A stretch of 64,000 nucleotides of DNA from Candidatus Poribacteria bacterium (GTDB taxonomy: Bacteria; Poribacteria; WGA-4E; UBA9662): positions 1 through 64,000 of the forward strand of contig DTUY01000189.1 in the NCBI GenBank assembly GCA_012963885.1, written 5' to 3'. How positions within the stretch are numbered: the stretch's first letter is position 1; the number at the start of each line of letters is the position of its first letter. Positions 31,223 through 42,669 of this stretch are shown here, in pieces. Position numbers and translations under genes: made by a program. The notes below the pieces were generated by a model. That model had not been told where the DNA came from. It saw only the letters and a list, made by a program, of their open reading frames with translations, and searched no databases.

Positions 31223-34200
31223 CTAGTTTCCTGCTAATACCTTGAAGTTCCCAACATCCTCAAGAATTAGCAGGCCGAGACTACTGGGAGGAACTGACTC
31301 AGTATTGGGCATTTGTTCGGCCCAATAAACCGATCGTTCATCTGACCGGTGAATGATGAAATTAAAACCCAGCTTATTGTTTCGTTTCATTTTTATGGGA
31401 TCAAATCCTTTAAGTATAGGATAGAAAGGGAGGCGTGCCTCGATCATATAATAATTTTCCTGCTCAGTCACGGCTATTTGTAATCCCTTAGCTTCATAAT
31501 TCGGAACCAGTCTGGGTGCAGACTGTCCGAAATATGGCCGGCTACCATTAAAGCCGCCGCCCTTCGGACAAACCCAAAAAATGAACCGATCCGAATCACC
31601 TTGGCTGTCGAGGTAATCAGGCCTGTGTTCATGTATCGGGTGGAGGTCAATATGGAGTTCAAGTGCATCAGAACCTTGATAGTATCGAATTGGATCACCC
31701 ACTTCAACTTGATTGTCATAAATTTGTGCTAGAAAGTATAGTGAGTCTTGATCCCATTGTAGCCACAATAGACCTTCATTTTTTGGAGTCACGATTGCCT
31801 TTTCGAGTGGCCATTGATCATCAAGACCATCAATGACGACGGGTTTATTGGTTCTTGCTGCCCAAGCAATCAAATTCGATCGGCACATGGTTGTTATCTC
31901 AACATTTGTTTCACCAGTCTCAATTAAACGATCATCGTAAATCATGGCAATCATTTCCCCACCGGTCAATCCAAGCTCATTGGATTCATTGATATCTCGT
32001 CCATATGCTGTTTGAATTGATCCACGAAATATCCGGGAATTTTTACTCTCTTCCAGAAGCACAATATGACTACCTGTTTCCATTTCATTGACCCGTACTC
32101 GCAAATTGGCTGATTCAGTTATAGAAGGGTCAACATTGAGATCCTGATCTTCCAAGCGGAAATAAAGTGTGGCGCCAATATTAAAATTCCGAAGCACTGA
32201 ACCGTCTTTACGGGTGACAGTTAAATTGCCACGGATCCCTTTATTAGCGTAGGTAATATCCTCGACAGTTGTTGCGTTGATGGCACTAAATTGAGGCGAA
32301 TAGATGGCAGTTACTGCTTCTTCTCCTTGGACGTCAAGTGTGTCATCTGCGACTGCTGTTCTTCCATAGCGGGTTGGAACGACCCCCCAAAATACGCCGT
32401 TTTGGTTCGGCTTCTTTTCTAGTACTACATCAACCTGATCTTGTGTTCGGTTCCCATAAATAGTGATCGTCACTTCACTTGCGTCAACGACAGTACTGAG
32501 AAGAAGATCTTCAAGCCAGAAGTAAAGCAGATCTCCAGCCATAAAACTGCCGACTTCACTTTCATTGTCATCGGTAATCTTTAGAATGCCTTCATTACCG
32601 CTGAGCACAATAGCCTGCACCTTTGTCATTATTCCGGTTTCACCAGTTGCTGTGAGTGCGTCCAAATAGCTTATAGCAATCACTTCCTTATCAGTAAGCA
32701 CCAATCCAATTGGATCGGCATTTGCCTGATTACTAGTTGTGAAGGTTCCTGCAAAGATACCGGAATTTTTGTTTGTTTCGTGCAGACTAATAACCTTCTC
32801 GTTTCCCAGTACATTTCCACGAACAGTTACTTTTGTTGACTCAATTTTTTCAGGAAAGAGATCTAAATCTTTATCAGTTAACCGAACCAACAGTTGTTCG
32901 CTATTATTGAAACTTCCGATACCAACAGAGAAATTGCTGATTAAACGAAGTGATTCGACAGTATAAATTTCAATATCACCGGTTTCTCCCACCGCTACCA
33001 TCAGATCAACACGAATTTTTACCTGTGTTGCGCCGGTATCCTGTAAGGCATCAGTATACACAAAGGTGACAATGTCACCGCCTTGAACCTGCAGGACACC
33101 ATCATTCACAATTGGGTTCGAGCCGTAATCAGTTTTTAGTCGACCGCGAAAGACACCTGCGTTTCCAAAAACCCCCCACATCGTTATCCTTATCCTATCA
33201 CGAACCGTATTTTCGGTAAGATCGGTTTCGAATACCTGAGCCACTACGTTTGTTGTATCCAGATCTGCATCTTTGATTTCAAGGATCAGCGTGTCACTCG
33301 CACGAAAACGGTTTATTGGAGAATTCAACATGGAATCTGGATTAAAACCTGATTCATTATAAACATGAATATTTCCAGTCGTCCCAACGTTTGTTTCACA
33401 GGTATCAACAATCTCGATATTTGTTTCACCAGTTGCCCTCAAACCATCAAGATAGACAGCCTGAATTTTTTCTGCCCCTTTTACCTGAATTACTCCATCA
33501 TCAATTTGCGCTTCGGTGCTATATAGCGTAGGAATAGAACCGGAAAAGTTCCCTTCGGCAGACGTCGAGAACAACACTAACTTCTCCCGATCGTTTAGCA
33601 TATTACCACTAAGAGCAATCGCAATAACATCCTGAACGATGTCCTTATCACGAAGACGCAAGTGAAGCATGTTTCCAGCGTTGAAATTCTCCAGATCAGT
33701 CACCTGATTTGATTGTACAATCCCAATGATCCCATCATAGCCAGTCACGGCCTGAGCGACTCTCGAAATCAAGACTCCAGTCTCTCCGGAACCCCGAATT
33801 TGATCGACGTAACCAACCGTAACTTTTTCACCACCGACTACTTCGAGTTTATTGTTTTTAGTGTCAGCTTTTATTGCATATGTCGTTTCGACAGAGGCGA
33901 TAAAAATACTGCTATCAGCATCGGTTTCAGTCAAAGCCAGTCTATATTGATCCTGTAATTGATCCCCTTCAATTATGACATCAATGATTTCTTTTTGCGT
34001 TAAATCTTGATTGAGATCCGTATCTTGGAGTTCAATTTGTAGTGGAGTTCCTGCTTTGAAAAGCATGTCTCCGGGTATCAGTCTTCCGTTGATATTTAAT
34101 TGTGCGGTATCGCCAATTTTTACCGTTTTTTGAGTTTGAATTGTTACATTGGCTTCACCTGTTTCTCGCAGTTGATCCACATACATGGCACTAATCGTCT

Positions 34201-37000
34201 GCATCCCAACTGCTTGAAGTATCATGTCATTTGGATCAGAAGTTTCACTGTAGACAGTTGTGAACTGTCCAGAATGATAGTTATTTTCTGAATCAAACAA
34301 AAGTTTAAGTGATTCACTTTCATCAGTTCCGATTACTGCGAGCTCCACCTCGATCTCGCTACTTTTTGACACGTCGGCATCTTGAACAATAATATGAAGT
34401 TTCGAACCCAGTTCAATCATCTTAGCCGGTCGTTCGACATTATTAATGAAGATTTTACCGTCGTTCCCGCTGGTTGCAACCACTGTTGCTTCAACCAGCT
34501 TGTTTCGTTCGTCACGACTGAAATAGGGATCAATGTAAGTCAATAGAATTTCGTCATTTCCACGTACTTTTAATATATCCAACGAACTACCTTCTGCATC
34601 GGAAGTATCTCGCTCTTTTTCAAAGACTGTTACAACCCGAGTGGTGAACAGAGAACTATTTTCAGATCTATTACCCCTAACATCATCAATTAGGGTAGTA
34701 AAATCAGTCTCATATAATGCAAGACGCATGGTTTGGCTAGTAGTGGTATTCGTTAATGCGGCTTGAATTGACTCCGACTCTGCGCGGTCGGTGTTACTAT
34801 CTGCATCCCACACACATAAGCTAATTACATCACCCGCTGTAAAAGTGAATATGGGCATTAGCAACCGTTCATCCATAAACACAACCCGACCGCTAATTTG
34901 GCTGACCAGTTCAATTACATTCCAATCACTGGGTGAAGCGTTTACATCACCAGACGCATAAGCAAAACTACGATCTCCCACAGAATAGATGTAATTGAAT
35001 CCAATCGATTTGCCAATGTCGGGAATATAATTCTGAAGAACCAGATCTTTTGGAAGACATACTTCTAGGTTATATCCCTTGTCTGTCGGCATGATTTTGG
35101 CGTCGATATATTTATGGAAGTTAATATTCTTAGGGATGGCATCCATGTGGTGGTGAATCTGGGTGGGATGAACGAAAAGTTGATTTGTGTCCGATCCGTA
35201 GATTGTCAAAACGAAATGGTGGTCACTTGTTTTGTACATGCCAGTTGAAGCTTTTCTGGTAGAATCGCAAAAGATATGAATGACATCGCGATCCGTACTT
35301 TTAAGATCGGCATGGTTGATAGTAGCAGCAATATAAAAATTTTCTTCGTTCCATTGGGTGTAGAGCGTAACTAGATCTTGTATTGGTTTAGCATCTAAAA
35401 AACGGCCAAATTTTTTGGGATCCGGATCAATTTCACGTGCCATGTGTGGATACAAAAGGTGCCAATCTTCTATATAACCATCAATTACGATCTCTTGATC
35501 CACCTTAATGGCACGACCAATCTGATCGTTTGACAATTGCTGAGACTTTACCATTTCAGGACCAGAGATTTTGATCGGTCGAGCTTCATATAGCCGTACT
35601 TCGGAAACGACTGCATTGGGACCGGCAATTCGATTAAAATGAAGTTCCATACGTCCGTCGGCATAGGCCTCAGAGGGAATGGGAATAGTTCTTGTGCTGA
35701 AATCTCCTACAGGTATTTCAATTGCCGGATGAAGGATGTGCCCATCAACCAGCAGATCCTGAATACGTGTTCCACCATTCTCTTGCAGATATTCCACCTC
35801 TACCCAATAGAGCATCCAAGGTTTAAGTTGATTGTAGCCAACTTTTACAGCGTTATAATGGTAAGAGAAACTTCTGGCGGAATTAGGATTACCCGGATTA
35901 ACTTTGTCAGGCTCTCCACCTTCAGCAAGAAAATATCGATTTTCGCCACTGGTATCCCGATCAAAGGCAAATCCCTGTATCAGGTGCGGAGCTAAGATGT
36001 TATTTGCCTCACCAAGCCGCTCATGTTGCATCTGGATAGCGTTGTAATCCCTAAGTTCCCTCTCTAAACTATTAGGACGATAGTCTTTAGTATAGACCTC
36101 AAATTCGCGAATCTCAGCATAATCACCATGCCAATCACCATTTTCAATTTGTAAACGAATATAACGTCCCTTCATCGGCATATCAAAGAGATGTTGATCT
36201 GCCACAGTCTCATCCGGTAATTCCTGAGATATATAGATATTCTGATAATCCTGTCCATTCGAACTGATAGCAATTGAGTAGGTCTTAACGTTGTCTCCGG
36301 GACCATCAGTAGTCAGCTGAAACCCGTATATCTTTTGAATTTCGCCGATATCTGCGGTAACATAAACAGGTGTTTCCGGCGGTTTGTATTTTATCTCAAC
36401 TTCTTCCCCTCCGTCCTCGACTTCAGTTTCTATTCGTTGCGCCGCCGCCCATTTTGAATCTCTGAAAGGAATTAGATCCTTTAGCATAGACAACTCAACT
36501 TCATTATAATTGGAAGTCATCGATTGAATGGGTGTATGGGATTTGTATCTTAATCCAACTTGAAAATCATCGACTTTTAAATTCGGTCTATTATTAAACC
36601 AGTCATTGATCACAACCTGAATCCAACGCGCTTCAGTTGGAAACTGAAAAGGCTGCAGCGCGAAATTGTATTCACGTGAACTACCAACATAAGAAAAGGC
36701 ACGTGTAAAACGTGATTTCGATCTGTCCTTTCCTACTAATATATCAAACTGTTTCGGTCCACTTTCATTTGGGTCTTCAAATCGAACCTTAACTTTGTCA
36801 ACCAGGTAGACATAACCGAGATCATAGGTGGCAAAGGGAGGGTCGCTCCTGAGCAAATCTGCCGACCGGAGGGATTCATCATCCATCTTGCGAACGGGCT
36901 TGATGAAGTATTGGTTTGTTCTCAGATTAACTTTATTTCGCGGATAAAACAGAAACCCTAGTAGGATTGCGATACTGCTGAGGAAAAGATACTTAGCCAC
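31223..37000 (-). CDS. Giant secreted protein: discoidin-like, CBM9-like and eight tandem repeats
   Basis: A 1925-residue protein with an N-terminal signal or anchor (LFLSSIAILLGFLFYP). Residues 40-155 and 160-310 resemble F5/8-type C (discoidin) domains; the second has YGFQLTTDGPGDNVKTYSIA and KGRYIRLQIENG. Residues 490-710 resemble a CBM9/DOMON-type domain (IDGYIEDWHLLYPHM). Residues 710-1700 contain eight units of 110-130 residues, each ending in Y-x-D-x-L-x-x-TGE (for example YVDQLRETGEANV, YLDGLRATGETNI). Each unit also has a DxDL segment and an E(T/S)..(N/D)S.(I/V)F.G strand. Residues 1710-1925 are a second CBM9-like domain (VVIDGLDDQWPL). This suggests a surface glycan-binding or adhesin protein. 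It begins 12 nt after the AAA ATPase gene. Confidence 0.8.
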   Translation of the reverse strand: MAKYLFLSSIAILLGFLFYPRNKVNLRTNQYFIKPVRKMDDESLRSADLLRSDPPFATYDLGYVYLVDKVKVRFEDPNESGPKQFDILVGKDRSKSRFTRAFSYVGSSREYNFALQPFQFPTEARWIQVVINDWFNNRPNLKVDDFQVGLRYKSHTPIQSMTSNYNEVELSMLKDLIPFRDSKWAAAQRIETEVEDGGEEVEIKYKPPETPVYVTADIGEIQKIYGFQLTTDGPGDNVKTYSIAISSNGQDYQNIYISQELPDETVADQHLFDMPMKGRYIRLQIENGDWHGDYAEIREFEVYTKDYRPNSLERELRDYNAIQMQHERLGEANNILAPHLIQGFAFDRDTSGENRYFLAEGGEPDKVNPGNPNSARSFSYHYNAVKVGYNQLKPWMLYWVEVEYLQENGGTRIQDLLVDGHILHPAIEIPVGDFSTRTIPIPSEAYADGRMELHFNRIAGPNAVVSEVRLYEARPIKISGPEMVKSQQLSNDQIGRAIKVDQEIVIDGYIEDWHLLYPHMAREIDPDPKKFGRFLDAKPIQDLVTLYTQWNEENFYIAATINHADLKSTDRDVIHIFCDSTRKASTGMYKTSDHHFVLTIYGSDTNQLFVHPTQIHHHMDAIPKNINFHKYIDAKIMPTDKGYNLEVCLPKDLVLQNYIPDIGKSIGFNYIYSVGDRSFAYASGDVNASPSDWNVIELVSQISGRVVFMDERLLMPIFTFTAGDVISLCVWDADSNTDRAESESIQAALTNTTTSQTMRLALYETDFTTLIDDVRGNRSENSSLFTTRVVTVFEKERDTSDAEGSSLDILKVRGNDEILLTYIDPYFSRDERNKLVEATVVATSGNDGKIFINNVERPAKMIELGSKLHIIVQDADVSKSSEIEVELAVIGTDESESLKLLFDSENNYHSGQFTTVYSETSDPNDMILQAVGMQTISAMYVDQLRETGEANVTIQTQKTVKIGDTAQLNINGRLIPGDMLFKAGTPLQIELQDTDLNQDLTQKEIIDVIIEGDQLQDQYRLALTETDADSSIFIASVETTYAIKADTKNNKLEVVGGEKVTVGYVDQIRGSGETGVLISRVAQAVTGYDGIIGIVQSNQVTDLENFNAGNMLHLRLRDKDIVQDVIAIALSGNMLNDREKLVLFSTSAEGNFSGSIPTLYSTEAQIDDGVIQVKGAEKIQAVYLDGLRATGETNIEIVDTCETNVGTTGNIHVYNESGFNPDSMLNSPINRFRASDTLILEIKDADLDTTNVVAQVFETDLTENTVRDRIRITMWGVFGNAGVFRGRLKTDYGSNPIVNDGVLQVQGGDIVTFVYTDALQDTGATQVKIRVDLMVAVGETGDIEIYTVESLRLISNFSVGIGSFNNSEQLLVRLTDKDLDLFPEKIESTKVTVRGNVLGNEKVISLHETNKNSGIFAGTFTTSNQANADPIGLVLTDKEVIAISYLDALTATGETGIMTKVQAIVLSGNEGILKITDDNESEVGSFMAGDLLYFWLEDLLLSTVVDASEVTITIYGNRTQDQVDVVLEKKPNQNGVFWGVVPTRYGRTAVADDTLDVQGEEAVTAIYSPQFSAINATTVEDITYANKGIRGNLTVTRKDGSVLRNFNIGATLYFRLEDQDLNVDPSITESANLRVRVNEMETGSHIVLLEESKNSRIFRGSIQTAYGRDINESNELGLTGGEMIAMIYDDRLIETGETNVEITTMCRSNLIAWAARTNKPVVIDGLDDQWPLEKAIVTPKNEGLLWLQWDQDSLYFLAQIYDNQVEVGDPIRYYQGSDALELHIDLHPIHEHRPDYLDSQGDSDRFIFWVCPKGGGFNGSRPYFGQSAPRLVPNYEAKGLQIAVTEQENYYMIEARLPFYPILKGFDPIKMKRNNKLGFNFIIHRSDERSVYWAEQMPNTESVPPSSLGLLILEDVGNFKVLAGN

Positions 37001-37012
37001 AAAGCTAACCCT

Positions 37013-39412
37013 TTATACCATGTCAAGAGAATTTTTTAATTCTTGAAGACGACGACTAATTTTTTGCTTGTCAATTCGGTTCCCGTCAACGTATTCCCTT
37101 AACTCATGCGGCAAATTTGGTGGAACCATCGACCGGGAATTTGCTTCACGAAGTGCCAAAAGTCCCATAAATTCGTTCATCTCAGGTGAATGTTCAGGAA
37201 CATAGTCGTCAATGGTTCGATTTAGATCTTCTTGGGACACAACCTCACGTTCATGCCGTTTGGCAAGGTTATAGCTTCTCAGCACAATACGTTCAAGATC
37301 TCCACCGCTCAGTCTACGTGTCGCTCGGTTAGCTTGGCTAAAATCAATGCCATCAACGGAAATCTGATGTTTTCTGAAAAGTTTCTCCAGAATATCAGCA
37401 CGTTCCTGACCGGTTGGCCGCAGCAAAATTAATCGATGATCAAAGATACCACGTTGTCGAAACACCGGATCAATGGCATCGGGGCGGTTTGATGCACCAA
37501 TCCAGAGAATTTTACCGTGGTATTCTGGATCACTGATCATATTGGTCAGTTCAGCGGGCAACATACTGTTTGGTGTTTGCACGCCATTACTAACATGTGG
37601 GTTGCTTACCAAATCGATTTCGTCTACAAAAACAATTACCGGTATTACGGCTTGAACAAAACTAAGTGCCATCCTTAAATCGCTTTGATACGATTTTCCA
37701 TCACCCGCCATTGGTCTCTCAATACCAATCCATTCCCGTGGACTTTTAAGTCGAACAAATGTCAATCCACTGTATCTTGCAATCATCTGAGCTAACAAGG
37801 TCTTACCGGTACCAGGTGGTCCTAGCAACAACAACCCCCGCGGTGCACGCTTCAGATCACCTTGATGGATAGCGGACATGATATCTCTCATTATCTCACC
37901 AACGTGTCTCATACCACCGACCACTGAGCGATCGTAGGGAGTCGGCACAACTTCTAGTAGACCTCGACTGTGAGTCTCGACATTCTCACGTCGATACTGA
38001 GCAATTAGCGTTGGAGTAATCGGTTCACGCACCTCCTCTGCTCGCAAGGCAACGTCATGGATACCAAAGAGGGTAAGACCTGCGGTATCTCGGGCAGCTT
38101 GTTCAATCGTTAAATCTGGGTGAAGTTTTATCTGTGTCGTAATTTGCGCTCGTGAATCTGGATTGGTCTGAACAGGCAAGCTGATCAAGTGATTAATAAA
38201 TTCAAATCGATCATTGTAATCCGGAAAAGGAATTTCCACTACCGGCACATCACTATTTTTCGTCAATACTGGGTGGACATCGGTGATATCATGTGCTACC
38301 ATCAAGAAAAGGTGCTTTTTCAGTCTTATATCGAAGTCCGCTGCCCACCTCTGCAATGTATCCAAAAACGTCGTGGTCTCTTTTGGGAGTACAGACATTT
38401 CCCCACTTGGCGCGACTTTCTCTGTATAGAACATCACCAACCCAACCTTGTATCTTACAGTATTGAAAAGTGTATTAAGCTGATTTAACCAATCAGAGGT
38501 TATTGGGAGCTTACCAGAGCCAATGAAGGGGTCTTCATGCATCTTCTCGTGAATTACACCGGAGTTGATTTTCGTGCGATGCGGGTCAACTTCACGTTCA
38601 GAAACAATCTCCCACTGAGCATCTTCAATTTCTACCGGATTACCACTCGAGTCCTCGCCAGCAAGTTTGAATTTATAGGGTTCCCTCGGTTTTATCTCTC
38701 TTGGCATTTCCTCAAATTTGATTTTGGTAAGTTCCCCAGGAATAACTACGATCTCATCAGACTCAGCATTCACATTATGTACTTGAACAGTGATCTTGCC
38801 CTTGCCTGCCTTTGAAGCAGTAAAAACACCATCAGGGGTTATGTCACCAATTCCTCCTTCAACTTTCCAGCGCGCCTGTTGAATCCCAATTGGACGATTC
38901 GATCCGTCAAAACCGGTTAATTTTAGCCGGATTTTTTGACCAGATTCTATTTCAAATTGTTGAGGTGAAATTTCAAGCTGCTCAATCTGGTCATCCGTAA
39001 TACGGAACCGTGGTGATTCGGTACGCACATTGCCAACTGAAGCACGGATTCGCCCTAGCCCCAGTTCCTCTGCTATAAACGTTCCCTGCCCATCAAATTG
39101 ACCGACAGAGGGTAAACCTCCCTGCATCTCACCAACCCATTTAACATCCTCACTAACCAACCCAAGTGAACGTTGGATCCATTTCCAATGGTCTATTTGC
39201 GGCCAAATAATTCCTTGTGAAGGTGTATACCCAAGAACAATATCACACCCAACCATATTCAATTGTTCCATGAGATAATAGAATATGGGTAAATACCCAT
39301 GTTCCGCGTCTTTTGCCAAGTCATATGTATTATAGTGAAGCATAAACATATGGGCAGAACCTGCTTTGTACTCTTTGGCAATCCTATCAAAAAAGCTGGG
39401 CATTTCCCTCAT
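37013..39412 (-). CDS. AAA ATPase with a degenerate first module split by Ig-like repeats
   Basis: A 799-residue protein. Residues 490-740 are a standard AAA module: LLLLGPPGTGKTLLAQMIAR (Walker A), VIPVIVFVDEID (Walker B), WIGASNRPDAIDPVFRQRGI (sensor 1 and Arg finger) and RRLSGGDLERIV (sensor 2). Residues 1-90 and 271-480 look like a degenerate AAA module without a P-loop (HLFLMVAHDITDVHP, IPFPDYNDRFEFI). Residues 91-270 between them are two repeat lengths of a bacterial Ig-like fold (RWKVEGGIGDITPDGVFTAS, KAGKGKITVQVHNV). Ig-like repeats normally occur outside the cytoplasm, yet no signal peptide is present. The coding strand runs on into the giant protein gene with a 12-nt gap. Confidence 0.82.
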   Translation of the reverse strand: MREMPSFFDRIAKEYKAGSAHMFMLHYNTYDLAKDAEHGYLPIFYYLMEQLNMVGCDIVLGYTPSQGIIWPQIDHWKWIQRSLGLVSEDVKWVGEMQGGLPSVGQFDGQGTFIAEELGLGRIRASVGNVRTESPRFRITDDQIEQLEISPQQFEIESGQKIRLKLTGFDGSNRPIGIQQARWKVEGGIGDITPDGVFTASKAGKGKITVQVHNVNAESDEIVVIPGELTKIKFEEMPREIKPREPYKFKLAGEDSSGNPVEIEDAQWEIVSEREVDPHRTKINSGVIHEKMHEDPFIGSGKLPITSDWLNQLNTLFNTVRYKVGLVMFYTEKVAPSGEMSVLPKETTTFLDTLQRWAADFDIRLKKHLFLMVAHDITDVHPVLTKNSDVPVVEIPFPDYNDRFEFINHLISLPVQTNPDSRAQITTQIKLHPDLTIEQAARDTAGLTLFGIHDVALRAEEVREPITPTLIAQYRRENVETHSRGLLEVVPTPYDRSVVGGMRHVGEIMRDIMSAIHQGDLKRAPRGLLLLGPPGTGKTLLAQMIARYSGLTFVRLKSPREWIGIERPMAGDGKSYQSDLRMALSFVQAVIPVIVFVDEIDLVSNPHVSNGVQTPNSMLPAELTNMISDPEYHGKILWIGASNRPDAIDPVFRQRGIFDHRLILLRPTGQERADILEKLFRKHQISVDGIDFSQANRATRRLSGGDLERIVLRSYNLAKRHEREVVSQEDLNRTIDDYVPEHSPEMNEFMGLLALREANSRSMVPPNLPHELREYVDGNRIDKQKISRRLQELKNSLDMV

Positions 39413-39819
39413 CTTAATCCTAGGGTTTCATTGTCCTTATCATAATAGCATGGCCACTATCAATTAGCAAGACTTTGCTTACGCTCGTTTAAAGAGTTTA
39501 ACCTTCTAAAGTGAGCTAGATTCTGACCAAAGGAATTAGCATACTAAAGAAGAAGATAGAGAGCCTGGATTCGAAGTTGCTAGGATTATCCAGCTCGAAA
39601 AAATTGCACCTCCGAACCCTGAACTACTCTCCCAAACTCAGGATTCAGGGCAACTGGTGGGTTGGATAACAACTCCAATTCCCTAAAAGATGATTCAAGA
39701 ATTACCAATGCCTGGAATGCTACTAGGACTCATTGAGGTTGGGAATAAAGTCCAGAGCATCAAGAAATTGCTGATATCCCCTTTATCGGTCCTCGAGCAC
39801 ATTACCTGTCACGAATTAA
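39413..39819. other. Intergenic stretch upstream of the AAA ATPase and IS element
   Basis: No gene seen. An inverted repeat CCCTGAA / TTCAGGG (39617-39623 and 39644-39650) is present with a 20-nt loop; its meaning is unclear. The promoter of the 20-kb minus-strand run probably lies at the left end, but I cannot name it with confidence. Confidence 0.35.
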
Positions 39820-40697
39820 TAGACCTCTTGCAAAAGTAGAAAGAAATGCTAGAATGAAAGGATGAGATACCAAGAGATAAAAGATAAATCAGGATCAGAT
39901 TATAAGCGATTGACTGGAGTTAGCCCACAGACCTTCCATCAGATGCGACAAATGTTAGAACAGTCCCAACCTCGGAGGGAACGACCAGCTAAACTGAGTT
40001 GTGCCGATCAATTGTTAATGACCTTGATGTACCGGCATGAATACCAGACTTAGTTTCACCTTGCCCAAAGCTATCGCCCAAGCGAAGCCACTGTTTGTCG
40101 CACCATAGCGAAAGAGGAAGACTGATTGATACAATCAGAACAGTTCCGATTGCCGGGTAAGAAGAAACTGCTAGAGAGTGACAAGCAAATTTAAGTCTTG
40201 TTAGTAGATGCCACCGAGCAACCAATTGAACGGCCGAAAAAAACAAGGACAATATTACAGTGGCAAAAAGCGGCATACGCAGAAAGCACAATTGGTGATA
40301 AATTTAGCCTTCCGACAGATCCTGTTCACCACTTTTGACAGCGGAAGGAAACATGATTTCCAGTTGTTTAAGAACAGCTAGACAAAGATTTAGAGGACAA
40401 CTCTGTTGTTTGTCTGATTCAGGTTGCCAGGGACTATCCAAGTTGCATAGCAACAGTTGGTTGCCAAAAAAGCAATCCAAACATCGGCCTCTGAGCCAGA
40501 AGGGGGAAGCCTCTAATAGAGATTTAGCCCGAGGCCGTATTTATGTTGAACATGTAATTGGCAAGTTAAAAGTCTTTGGCATCCTGTGCCAGCGTTATCG
40601 AGACCATCGCCGGTGTCTTTCACTACTGCTTTAATCTGATAGCTTCTATCTACAATTTGGAACTCACCCTTAAATGCTGATTTAGGCAAGAGGTTAA
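39820..40697 (+). mobile_element. Degenerate IS5-family insertion sequence
   Basis: The left end has AGACCTCTTGCAAAAG (39821-39836). The right end read on the minus strand has AACCTCTTGCCTAAA (40681-40695). These share ACCTCTTGC and flanking bases as imperfect terminal inverted repeats. The element is about 880 bp and contains one decayed transposase. No clear target-site duplication was found. Confidence 0.65.
39862..40682 (+). pseudogene. IS5-family transposase (DDE_Tnp_4 type), frameshifted
   Basis: The start MRYQEIKDKSGSDYKRLTGV and LSCADQLLMTLMYRHEY match the HTH part. Later pieces appear in changing frames: LVDATEQPIERPKK (first catalytic Asp), TVAKSGIRRKHNLVINLA, FTTFDSGRKHDFQLFKEQLD (second Asp region), ARGRIYVEHVIGKLKVFGIL (catalytic Glu) and LIASIYNLELTLKC at the end. 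Several stops and frameshifts separate them, so no active enzyme is made. The full family length is still recognisable. Confidence 0.82.
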
Positions 40698-41538
40698 ATG
40701 TTGTTTCTTACTGAATTTAGCTAGATGCTTGAAATCTCACCCACGCTTTCAATTCAATTGGATGCATCAGTTGAATTTGGCGAAATTATGGCCTCGGCAC
40801 TTGAAATTTCTCTTAAAAATTTGCCTAATACAGAATTGCGCCCTACAAGAACTTTTCCTACCATGTAACAGATACAGTTGTTGTACTAGGTTCGCGAGTT
40901 TTCTGCGCACTGATTGAGGATGTACTGATTGTCAGCTTAGGTTAGACTTCACAACTATCAAATCTTAATCGCACACTATCGAATAAAGCTTCCAATGATT
41001 TCCTGCAAATCGTGGACCATGTACATGACCAATCAGTTCCTTGGTGCAGGGTAAGTGGACCTGAGATTGAACTTAAAACTCAAAATCGATATCGCCTGTT
41101 TATTTATTGTTGCAATTTCCTCGCTTGCTTTAAGTCCATCAGTTGTGCCGATACTCTTAGTGCCCCTACCGCACGACGACGAACACCAACAAATTAATCC
41201 TGTAATGTTCCGATCAAAGCATAAACAACACCTACTTTATCCTCTTTCTATTTCTGCTGATTACTTAATGCAAAAGTGCCTCTTGTTTTCCAAAAAAGTG
41301 GGGTAGGGAAGGATGCGTGTTAGCAACGATAGCGAAATCAAGATATCAAGATATAGCTCAAAGATACCAAATGTATTGGCAAATCAGATAGCCACAAGGC
41401 GAAACTGGATCAGGATCTTAACGTGCGACTGAAATCAAAACAAAATACACTGTACATTAAGATCTGTAACAGGGAAGACGATTAGGCGTTTGCAGTCCGT
41501 TTCACTAACTCTTCAGGTAAACTAATTAAGTAGATCAG
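40698..41538. other. Long stretch without a confirmed gene
   Basis: A 47-codon frame at 40725-40868 (MLEISPTLSIQLDASVEFGE) is followed by fragments that could be decayed coding DNA, such as ALIEDVLIVSLG and FLQIVDHVHDQSVPW. No SD, family pattern or RNA is recognised. It is probably degraded sequence beside the dead IS. Confidence 0.35.
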
Positions 41539-42669
41539 TTATGAGGGATCAAGATAGAATTTTTGGAGCAGTTTAAGCTGATGCGATGATATTTCGGTTG
41601 GCAGTTTAACTCGGAGTGTTACAAGTTGATCTCCAGTATCCGTTCCTGCTTCATTCGGAAGCCCTTTACCAGAAAGTTTAAATTTATGATTGGGTTGTGT
41701 TCCAGCAGGGACATCAATATGGATAAAATCATCAAGCGTTTGTACCGAGATCTGTGTCCCCAAAATAGCATCAATAAAATCAACCCCCATTTCACTATGG
41801 AGATCGTTTCCGTGTCGCGAGAGGTATGGATGTTCTCGAATCCGGACTTTCAGAAATAAATCGCCGTTTGGACCATTATGTAAACCCGGTTCCCCCTTAC
41901 CAGAAATCTTTAAGCGAGTGCCGTCCTTAATACCTGGTTTTACAGTAGCCATAATTTTGTGTTGTCTCTCAATCCTACCGGTTTCACTACAATTGAAGCA
42001 GGGAATTCCTTTGTCATCGATGTTATCACAGCAACTGGGACATATCCGTTTAACATCAACGTTTCCCATTCTCACCTCGATAGTACCAGTTGCTGCACAT
42101 CTTCGGCACCCCCGCGAGTCAATGGCTCCTTGTCTCCCTATACCATTGCAGCGAATACAGGTTTCGTGAATGGTCACAGGGACCATAAACTGTCCACCTT
42201 GTAAAACATCTTTTAGGTCTATCTCAAGAATCTGCTGAACGCTTTCACCACGCACGGGTCTTTTTATTTTTGTTTTCTGACTTTCTGATTCGGTGAAGAA
42301 ATCATTGAAGAAATCTGAGAAGGAAGCACCCGAGAATTTCCCTCTTGTTCTTGCGCGTGCAGTCGAAGTTGGAGGTTCGTTGGTCGTTCGTGCTTGTGGC
42401 TTTGACCTTGGAGAAGATTGGTAACTATGTTTAGCAGACGGTGGTTTTGCCTTGTTTTTACTAGCAGAATAAGACTGATCGTATTCTGCTCTTTTTTCCG
42501 AGTTTGAAAGAATGGCATACGCTTCTGAGATGCGTTGGAATTTATCTTCAATGCTGAAGTTATTAGGATTTTTGTCGGGATGGAATTCAATCGCAAGCTG
42601 ACGGAATGCTTTTTTGATCTGGTCAAGCGTAGCAGACGTTGAAACCCCTAGAATTTTATAGTAATCCAC
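41539..42669 (-). CDS. dnaJ: DnaJ-type co-chaperone
   Basis: A 376-residue protein with the J domain at residues 1-66 (YKILGVSTSATLDQIKKAF, catalytic HPD in IEFHPDKNPN). A charged S/T/K/P linker follows in place of a classic G/F region. Four Cys pairs form the zinc domain: CIRCNGIG, CRRCAATG, CPSCCDNID and CFNCSETGRI. The third has lost the Gly pattern. The C-terminal substrate-binding domain is intact (MATVKPGIKDGTRLKISGKG). It works with DnaK and GrpE, which are not in the window. Confidence 0.88.
   Translation of the reverse strand: MDYYKILGVSTSATLDQIKKAFRQLAIEFHPDKNPNNFSIEDKFQRISEAYAILSNSEKRAEYDQSYSASKNKAKPPSAKHSYQSSPRSKPQARTTNEPPTSTARARTRGKFSGASFSDFFNDFFTESESQKTKIKRPVRGESVQQILEIDLKDVLQGGQFMVPVTIHETCIRCNGIGRQGAIDSRGCRRCAATGTIEVRMGNVDVKRICPSCCDNIDDKGIPCFNCSETGRIERQHKIMATVKPGIKDGTRLKISGKGEPGLHNGPNGDLFLKVRIREHPYLSRHGNDLHSEMGVDFIDAILGTQISVQTLDDFIHIDVPAGTQPNHKFKLSGKGLPNEAGTDTGDQLVTLRVKLPTEISSHQLKLLQKFYLDPS

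Follow-up and report, generated by a model that had tools for sequence, protein, structure and literature searches.

An AAA family ATPase encoded by a Candidatus Poribacteria bacterium contains, in frame, two repeat lengths of an immunoglobulin (Ig)-like domain. The window, which is the whole stretch of 64,000 nucleotides that was analysed, lies on contig C189 of a 6.8-Mb Candidatus Poribacteria MAG. The ATPase, recognized by Pfam AAA and by its homologs, has 799 residues and lies on the reverse strand at 37013-39412. Its insert occupies residues 91-270 (38603-39142, reverse strand). Because three families share this insert with identical boundaries, sequence comparison marks it as an ancient, conserved component in one branch of the family that other relatives most simply have lost, rather than as a fresh mishap or an artefact of assembly. 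The reading favored here, at a probability of roughly 0.6, is that the Ig pair was gained once, long ago, that it forms a nested Ig-in-Ig arm on a two-module AAA protein, and that it was later lost from some lineages.

Antibody-like (Ig) domains usually belong to secreted proteins. At the N-terminus of this ATPase neither a signal peptide nor a transmembrane segment was found, and the highest 19-residue hydropathy in its first 60 residues is 1.02. This agrees with the original prediction that a piece of an extracytoplasmic-type Ig array had been inserted in frame into a protein that has no signal peptide. The case offers a well-bounded example of a tandem extracellular repeat turned part of an intracellular machine. 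It can also be studied by comparison, because insert-bearing, primitively insert-free and, most probably, secondarily insert-free relatives all exist.

Boundaries and anatomy of the insert

The boundaries of the insert come from homologs that lack it. These align to residues 4-90 and then straight to residues 272-796 with nothing missing on their side, which places the insert at residues 91-271, give or take one. A search of 59 related genomes divided the query, wherever the homolog had no insert, into two matching segments, residues 3-91 and residues 261-797. In one such homolog, from G005, the two matches (96826-97086 and 97084-98658) abut at ATPase residues 90 and 272. Relatives that have the ATPase without the insert were what the original prediction had proposed to look for, and the way they abut at the flanks bears out the coordinates it gave, residues 91-270. 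A multiple alignment reveals the insertion point to be a length-variable linker, which is LGLLPHEEKKGDESRSPINSK in G005 and 180 residues here. Some members of family f3 have a longer, unrelated stretch of about 40 amino acids at this point. It has no match to the repeat profile described below and was rejected as an Ig relic. In this genome the junctions are also bordered by a possible duplication (VSED ... VSER). It is absent from the carriers in the other two families (G021 and G070), so it was not interpreted as a remnant of the insertion.

The internal structure of the insert was read with a repeat profile of 70 positions, built outward from the middle repeat with giant secreted-type proteins of the phylum (G000:C11 and C363, G001:C65, G012, G019, and G021; G000 is the genome of the window and G001 a congener). 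Three matches were obtained. Residues 91-141 (38990-39142) are the C-terminal half of an outer repeat (profile 42-70) plus a linker, residues 142-225 (38738-38989) are a complete middle repeat (profile 2-70, 68.7 bits) plus a linker, and residues 226-270 (38603-38737) are the N-terminal half of the outer repeat (profile 7-43). The start and end of the insert coincide in phase, just after the Trp strand, and Trp is present at both ends. The earlier description of two repeat lengths, circularly cut at the Trp, was therefore accurate. The insert contains no Cys. The ATPases of G001 and G021 give the same three matches. That of G070 gives four, because its middle repeat is split by about 71 amino acids at profile position ~41. 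The spacing inside the insert is about 16 residues between profile ends, and arrays commonly have 15-25, so the insert amounts to one contiguous stretch of array, two periods in length.

Do the two outer halves belong together? When the last piece is joined before the first, a single continuous repeat match results in all four carriers (48.1, 48.5, 44.4, and 64.0 bits), and in the window ATPase the joined halves cover profile positions 6-70 (48 bits). The joined halves amount to one complete repeat, and the natural reading is that one Ig domain is nested inside another. Specifically, the insert would correspond to a tandem Ig array, two periods in length, cut open in the loop that follows the Trp strand. 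Its outer halves most likely combine into a circularly permuted Ig that encloses a second, complete one. With such closure both ends would exit via one loop and the AAA module could fold around them. An alternative, with perhaps one chance in four, is that the halves stay apart and either pack on the AAA module or are swapped between adjacent subunits of the ring. The Trp at both ends means that the halves overlap slightly around the Trp strand, which would suit non-closing halves, and predicted models are uninformative about closure. AlphaFold2, run on the whole protein and on residues 80-285, gave a mean pLDDT of 32 over the full length and of 38 over the insert, and these models are not interpretable because the alignments had two rows. 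Against non-closure, the two halves complement each other at profile position 42/43 in every one of the four carriers, and their joined score is that of one complete repeat. The integer number of repeats and the phase of the cut together make a testable splicing rule: open a repeat in a loop, and the halves can still close.

The fold class of the insert can be assigned in a wider sense. Pfam finds no Ig domain in the ATPase, even when E values up to 1 are allowed, so the insert is not recognized as a member of PF02368 (Big_2). Related repeats in a giant repeat protein of the same genome (G000:C363) do reach Pfam Big_2, at 6e-9 and above the cut-off. Furthermore, a profile of the middle and donor repeats matches solved Big_2 domains, namely LigA (8gyr) at 1e-6 and a bacterial teneurin-like protein (9ifo) at 4e-11. 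By homology to repeats that match these structures, the insert is Big_2-like. It differs from the Big_2-type domains that its repeat profile matches: they come in tandem outside the cytoplasm and start at strand A, whereas the insert is two periods cut in a loop, inside an enzyme without a signal peptide.

One old gain and later loss as the simplest history

Of 85 genomes searched in the phylum, 67 have the ATPase (E ≤ 1e-60). Among 41 aligned loci, of which two are the same gene, the insert is present in four: those of G000 and G001 (family f1), G021 (f4) and G070 (f8, outside the order). Position and phase are identical in all four carriers. So is length to within one residue (180, 180, 181, and 180, the last without an extra 71-aa piece peculiar to G070). 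Identity to the insert of the window falls from 91% in the congener to 50% in another family and 46% in another order-level lineage.

This distribution refutes the idea that the insert is a recent capture, or a chimera, in this single genome, which has virtually no chance of being right. In its favor, similar repeats of about 35% identity do occur among the giant proteins that this genome encodes. However, an independent assembly of a congener (PAQF01000086.1) and two further families have the insert at the same place, which also disposes of the worry about a chimeric assembly raised with the original prediction. The prediction had read the region as an in-frame capture. A recent capture is not supported: three families share the insert with vertical-looking divergence, and the members of the order that lack it most simply lost it. 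The region is an ordinary part of the ATPase in four genomes (G000, G001, G021, and G070), which makes it an old and regular feature of one branch of the family. The prediction had named such a finding as one that would refute it.

How often was the insert gained? A tree made with the insert columns removed has the form (f9,f10),(f5,(G070+,(G000+G001+,(G005-,(G021+,f3-))))), where plus and minus denote presence and absence, and the outgroups in f5, f9 and f10 are without the insert. Grouping the carriers in one clade, as a single gain without loss would have it, is rejected by the AU test (p 0.0098), subject to the program's own caution about long-branch placement. Constraining the order's insert-free members to one group, as a single loss would imply, is not rejected (p 0.14). 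The G021 copy comes from a fragmented MAG, on a contig of 4 kb, though its position in the tree agrees with taxonomy. The inserts are each other's best matches: that of G000 scores 185 bits against G021 and 93 against G070, and donor-type repeats score 57-62. Because the carriers are not one clade and their inserts resemble one another more than they resemble arrays, the distribution is most simply explained by one old gain that predates the separation of the order from G070, with one or two losses afterwards.

The main historical rival to this one-gain history is that the insert was captured independently, or spread horizontally among lineages, into a hot-spot linker. The variable length of the site, with its unrelated stretch in some f3 members, and the failure of the carriers to form a clade are both in keeping with it. 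Nevertheless, identical phase and length would not be expected of separate captures, nor would inserts that resemble each other more than any array. In addition, insert identity follows that of the rest of the protein (91% and 91% for G001, 50% and 50% for G021). Separate captures or spread are therefore rather unlikely, and a single gain with later loss is the best-supported history.

The host ATPase and a possible role for the insert

The insert interrupts the N-terminal part of the ATPase. All parts lie on the reverse strand. Residues 1-90 (39143-39412), delimited by alignment to insert-free homologs, share 55% identity with G005 over residues 4-90. Residues 271-483 (37964-38602) follow the insert. 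Neither Pfam nor sequence searches of the PDB recognized this split module 1, and its profile-profile alignment with module 2 is collinear but weak (p 0.089). This alignment, together with the order of elements in a low-confidence predicted model, faintly suggests that residues 1-90 and 271-483 form a degenerate AAA module. So, of the earlier claim that the insert splits a degenerate first AAA module, the split is confirmed by homologs and the degenerate AAA identity is weakly supported. Going by sequence order and a low-confidence secondary structure, the insertion site would lie after the second helix and before a Walker-B-like strand.

Module 2 (residues 484-799, 37016-37963), defined by Pfam and PDB relatives, is much clearer. 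Its Pfam AAA match spans residues 527-661 (1.2e-19) and passes PF00004 at 71.5 bits against a cut-off of 21.2, with both nucleotide-site motifs. Alignment to homologs indicates that Walker A (GPPGTGKT, residues 531-538, 37799-37822) and Walker B (VIVFVDEID, residues 592-600, 37613-37639) are intact. In the arginine finger region, R..GRFD in p97 is FRQRGIFD here, with one Arg retained and others altered. On its motifs, module 2 looks active. Its best matches, in a profile search as well, are Cdc48/p97 and VCP-like ATPases (for example PDB 5g4g and 7rlh; E 1e-42). Those have two recognizable tandem AAA modules. Here Pfam finds a single one, module 1 has no recognizable P-loop, and an Ig pair is inserted. 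The NCBIfam CDC48 model scores the protein at 81 bits, far under its 803-bit cut-off, and the Cdc48 N-domain was not found in it.

The insert is under purifying selection, slightly less tight than that on the AAA parts. Between the congeners G000 and G001, dN is 0.044 and dS 0.344 in the insert (NG86; dN/dS ~0.13), and in the flanks dN is 0.02-0.06 and dS 0.55-0.74. This bears on whether the insert might be a functionless passenger tolerated in a surface loop. Many relatives have lost it and the linker tolerates other lengths, much as a neutral passenger would predict. However, the low dN/dS, the lack of any indel between the congeners, in frame or frame-breaking, and its retention across three families make neutrality improbable.

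What might the insert do? One clue is that the apparent insertion site, between a helix and the Walker-B-like strand, is where other AAA+ clades have accessory elements in the AAA core, which can mediate protein contacts (PMC5039278). The helix-2 inserts of clades 6-7 (MCM, NtrC, McrB) are likewise accessory elements in the AAA core, but they are small and native to their clades, whereas here a foreign Ig pair of 180 amino acids is found in one branch of one family. Judging by titles and abstracts in the open-licence literature, the same arrangement was not found described. The proposed explanation is that a Big_2-like Ig pair was inserted once, long ago, into the length-variable linker of degenerate module 1. 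The pair would stand out from the AAA ring as a rigid arm in the cytoplasm and bind a client or partner, with module 2 supplying ATP-driven work.

Another clue is the state of Walker A. The motif reads GPPGTGKT in G000, G001 and G070, and the outgroups too have a canonical form. Its Ser/Thr (in some also the Lys) is lost in G005, G021 and all aligned f3 sequences, a clade that appears to be a large group of likely pseudo-ATPases. The insert losses fall within this clade. Perhaps the arm became dispensable in the branch whose module 2 had lost the Walker A Ser/Thr, and was then lost. Yet G021 retains the insert despite loss of the Walker A Thr, so the presence of the insert is not strictly tied to ATPase activity, and motif decay either preceded insert loss or was independent of it. 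Insert loss within a clade lacking the ATP-binding motif provides a natural experiment on the purpose of the insert. A fuller version of the proposal holds that the nested Ig pair is a client or partner receptor, exapted from a secreted array before the order diverged and discarded where the ATPase became a pseudoenzyme. It is tentative, and we would give it somewhat less than even odds.

Neighboring genes

Downstream of the ATPase, on the same strand at 31223-37000, is a gene encoding a giant protein with F5/8 type C, CBM9 and other repeats (Pfam). It starts 12 bases past the ATPase stop codon and is adjacent in G001 also. The original prediction was right about this adjacency, but the gene was rejected as donor because its repeats are of a different type and do not match the insert. 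Upstream is a spacer of 2.1 kb (39413-41538) that contains a DDE transposase remnant (40335-40634); the same spacer is about 330 bases in G001. Beyond it, again on the same strand, lies a DnaJ-like gene with DnaJ and DnaJ_C domains (41539-42669), which is kept in G001.

In three families outside the order, represented by G062, G070 and G069, the ATPase gene adjoins a gene for a UPF0182 membrane protein (L074 4571-7474, L073 7321-9498, and L077 2-1960). The UPF0182 and DnaJ-like neighbors are leads only as to the client. The UPF0182 gene of G070 holds additional propeller-like sequence and contains a single in-frame stop codon (L073 8176-8178). The ATPase of G070 (L053 733-3345) has an addition of its own, the extra ~70 amino acids in its middle Ig (LDASLQNELKTG...VSRNLQQQFQ..., residues ~186-253), which occupy the loop corresponding to the one in which the outer Ig is cut. 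A module similar to this piece is found within a UPF0182 protein ORF of the window's genome (G000:C268:79300-79497), and also in the UPF0182 neighbor of the G070 ATPase.
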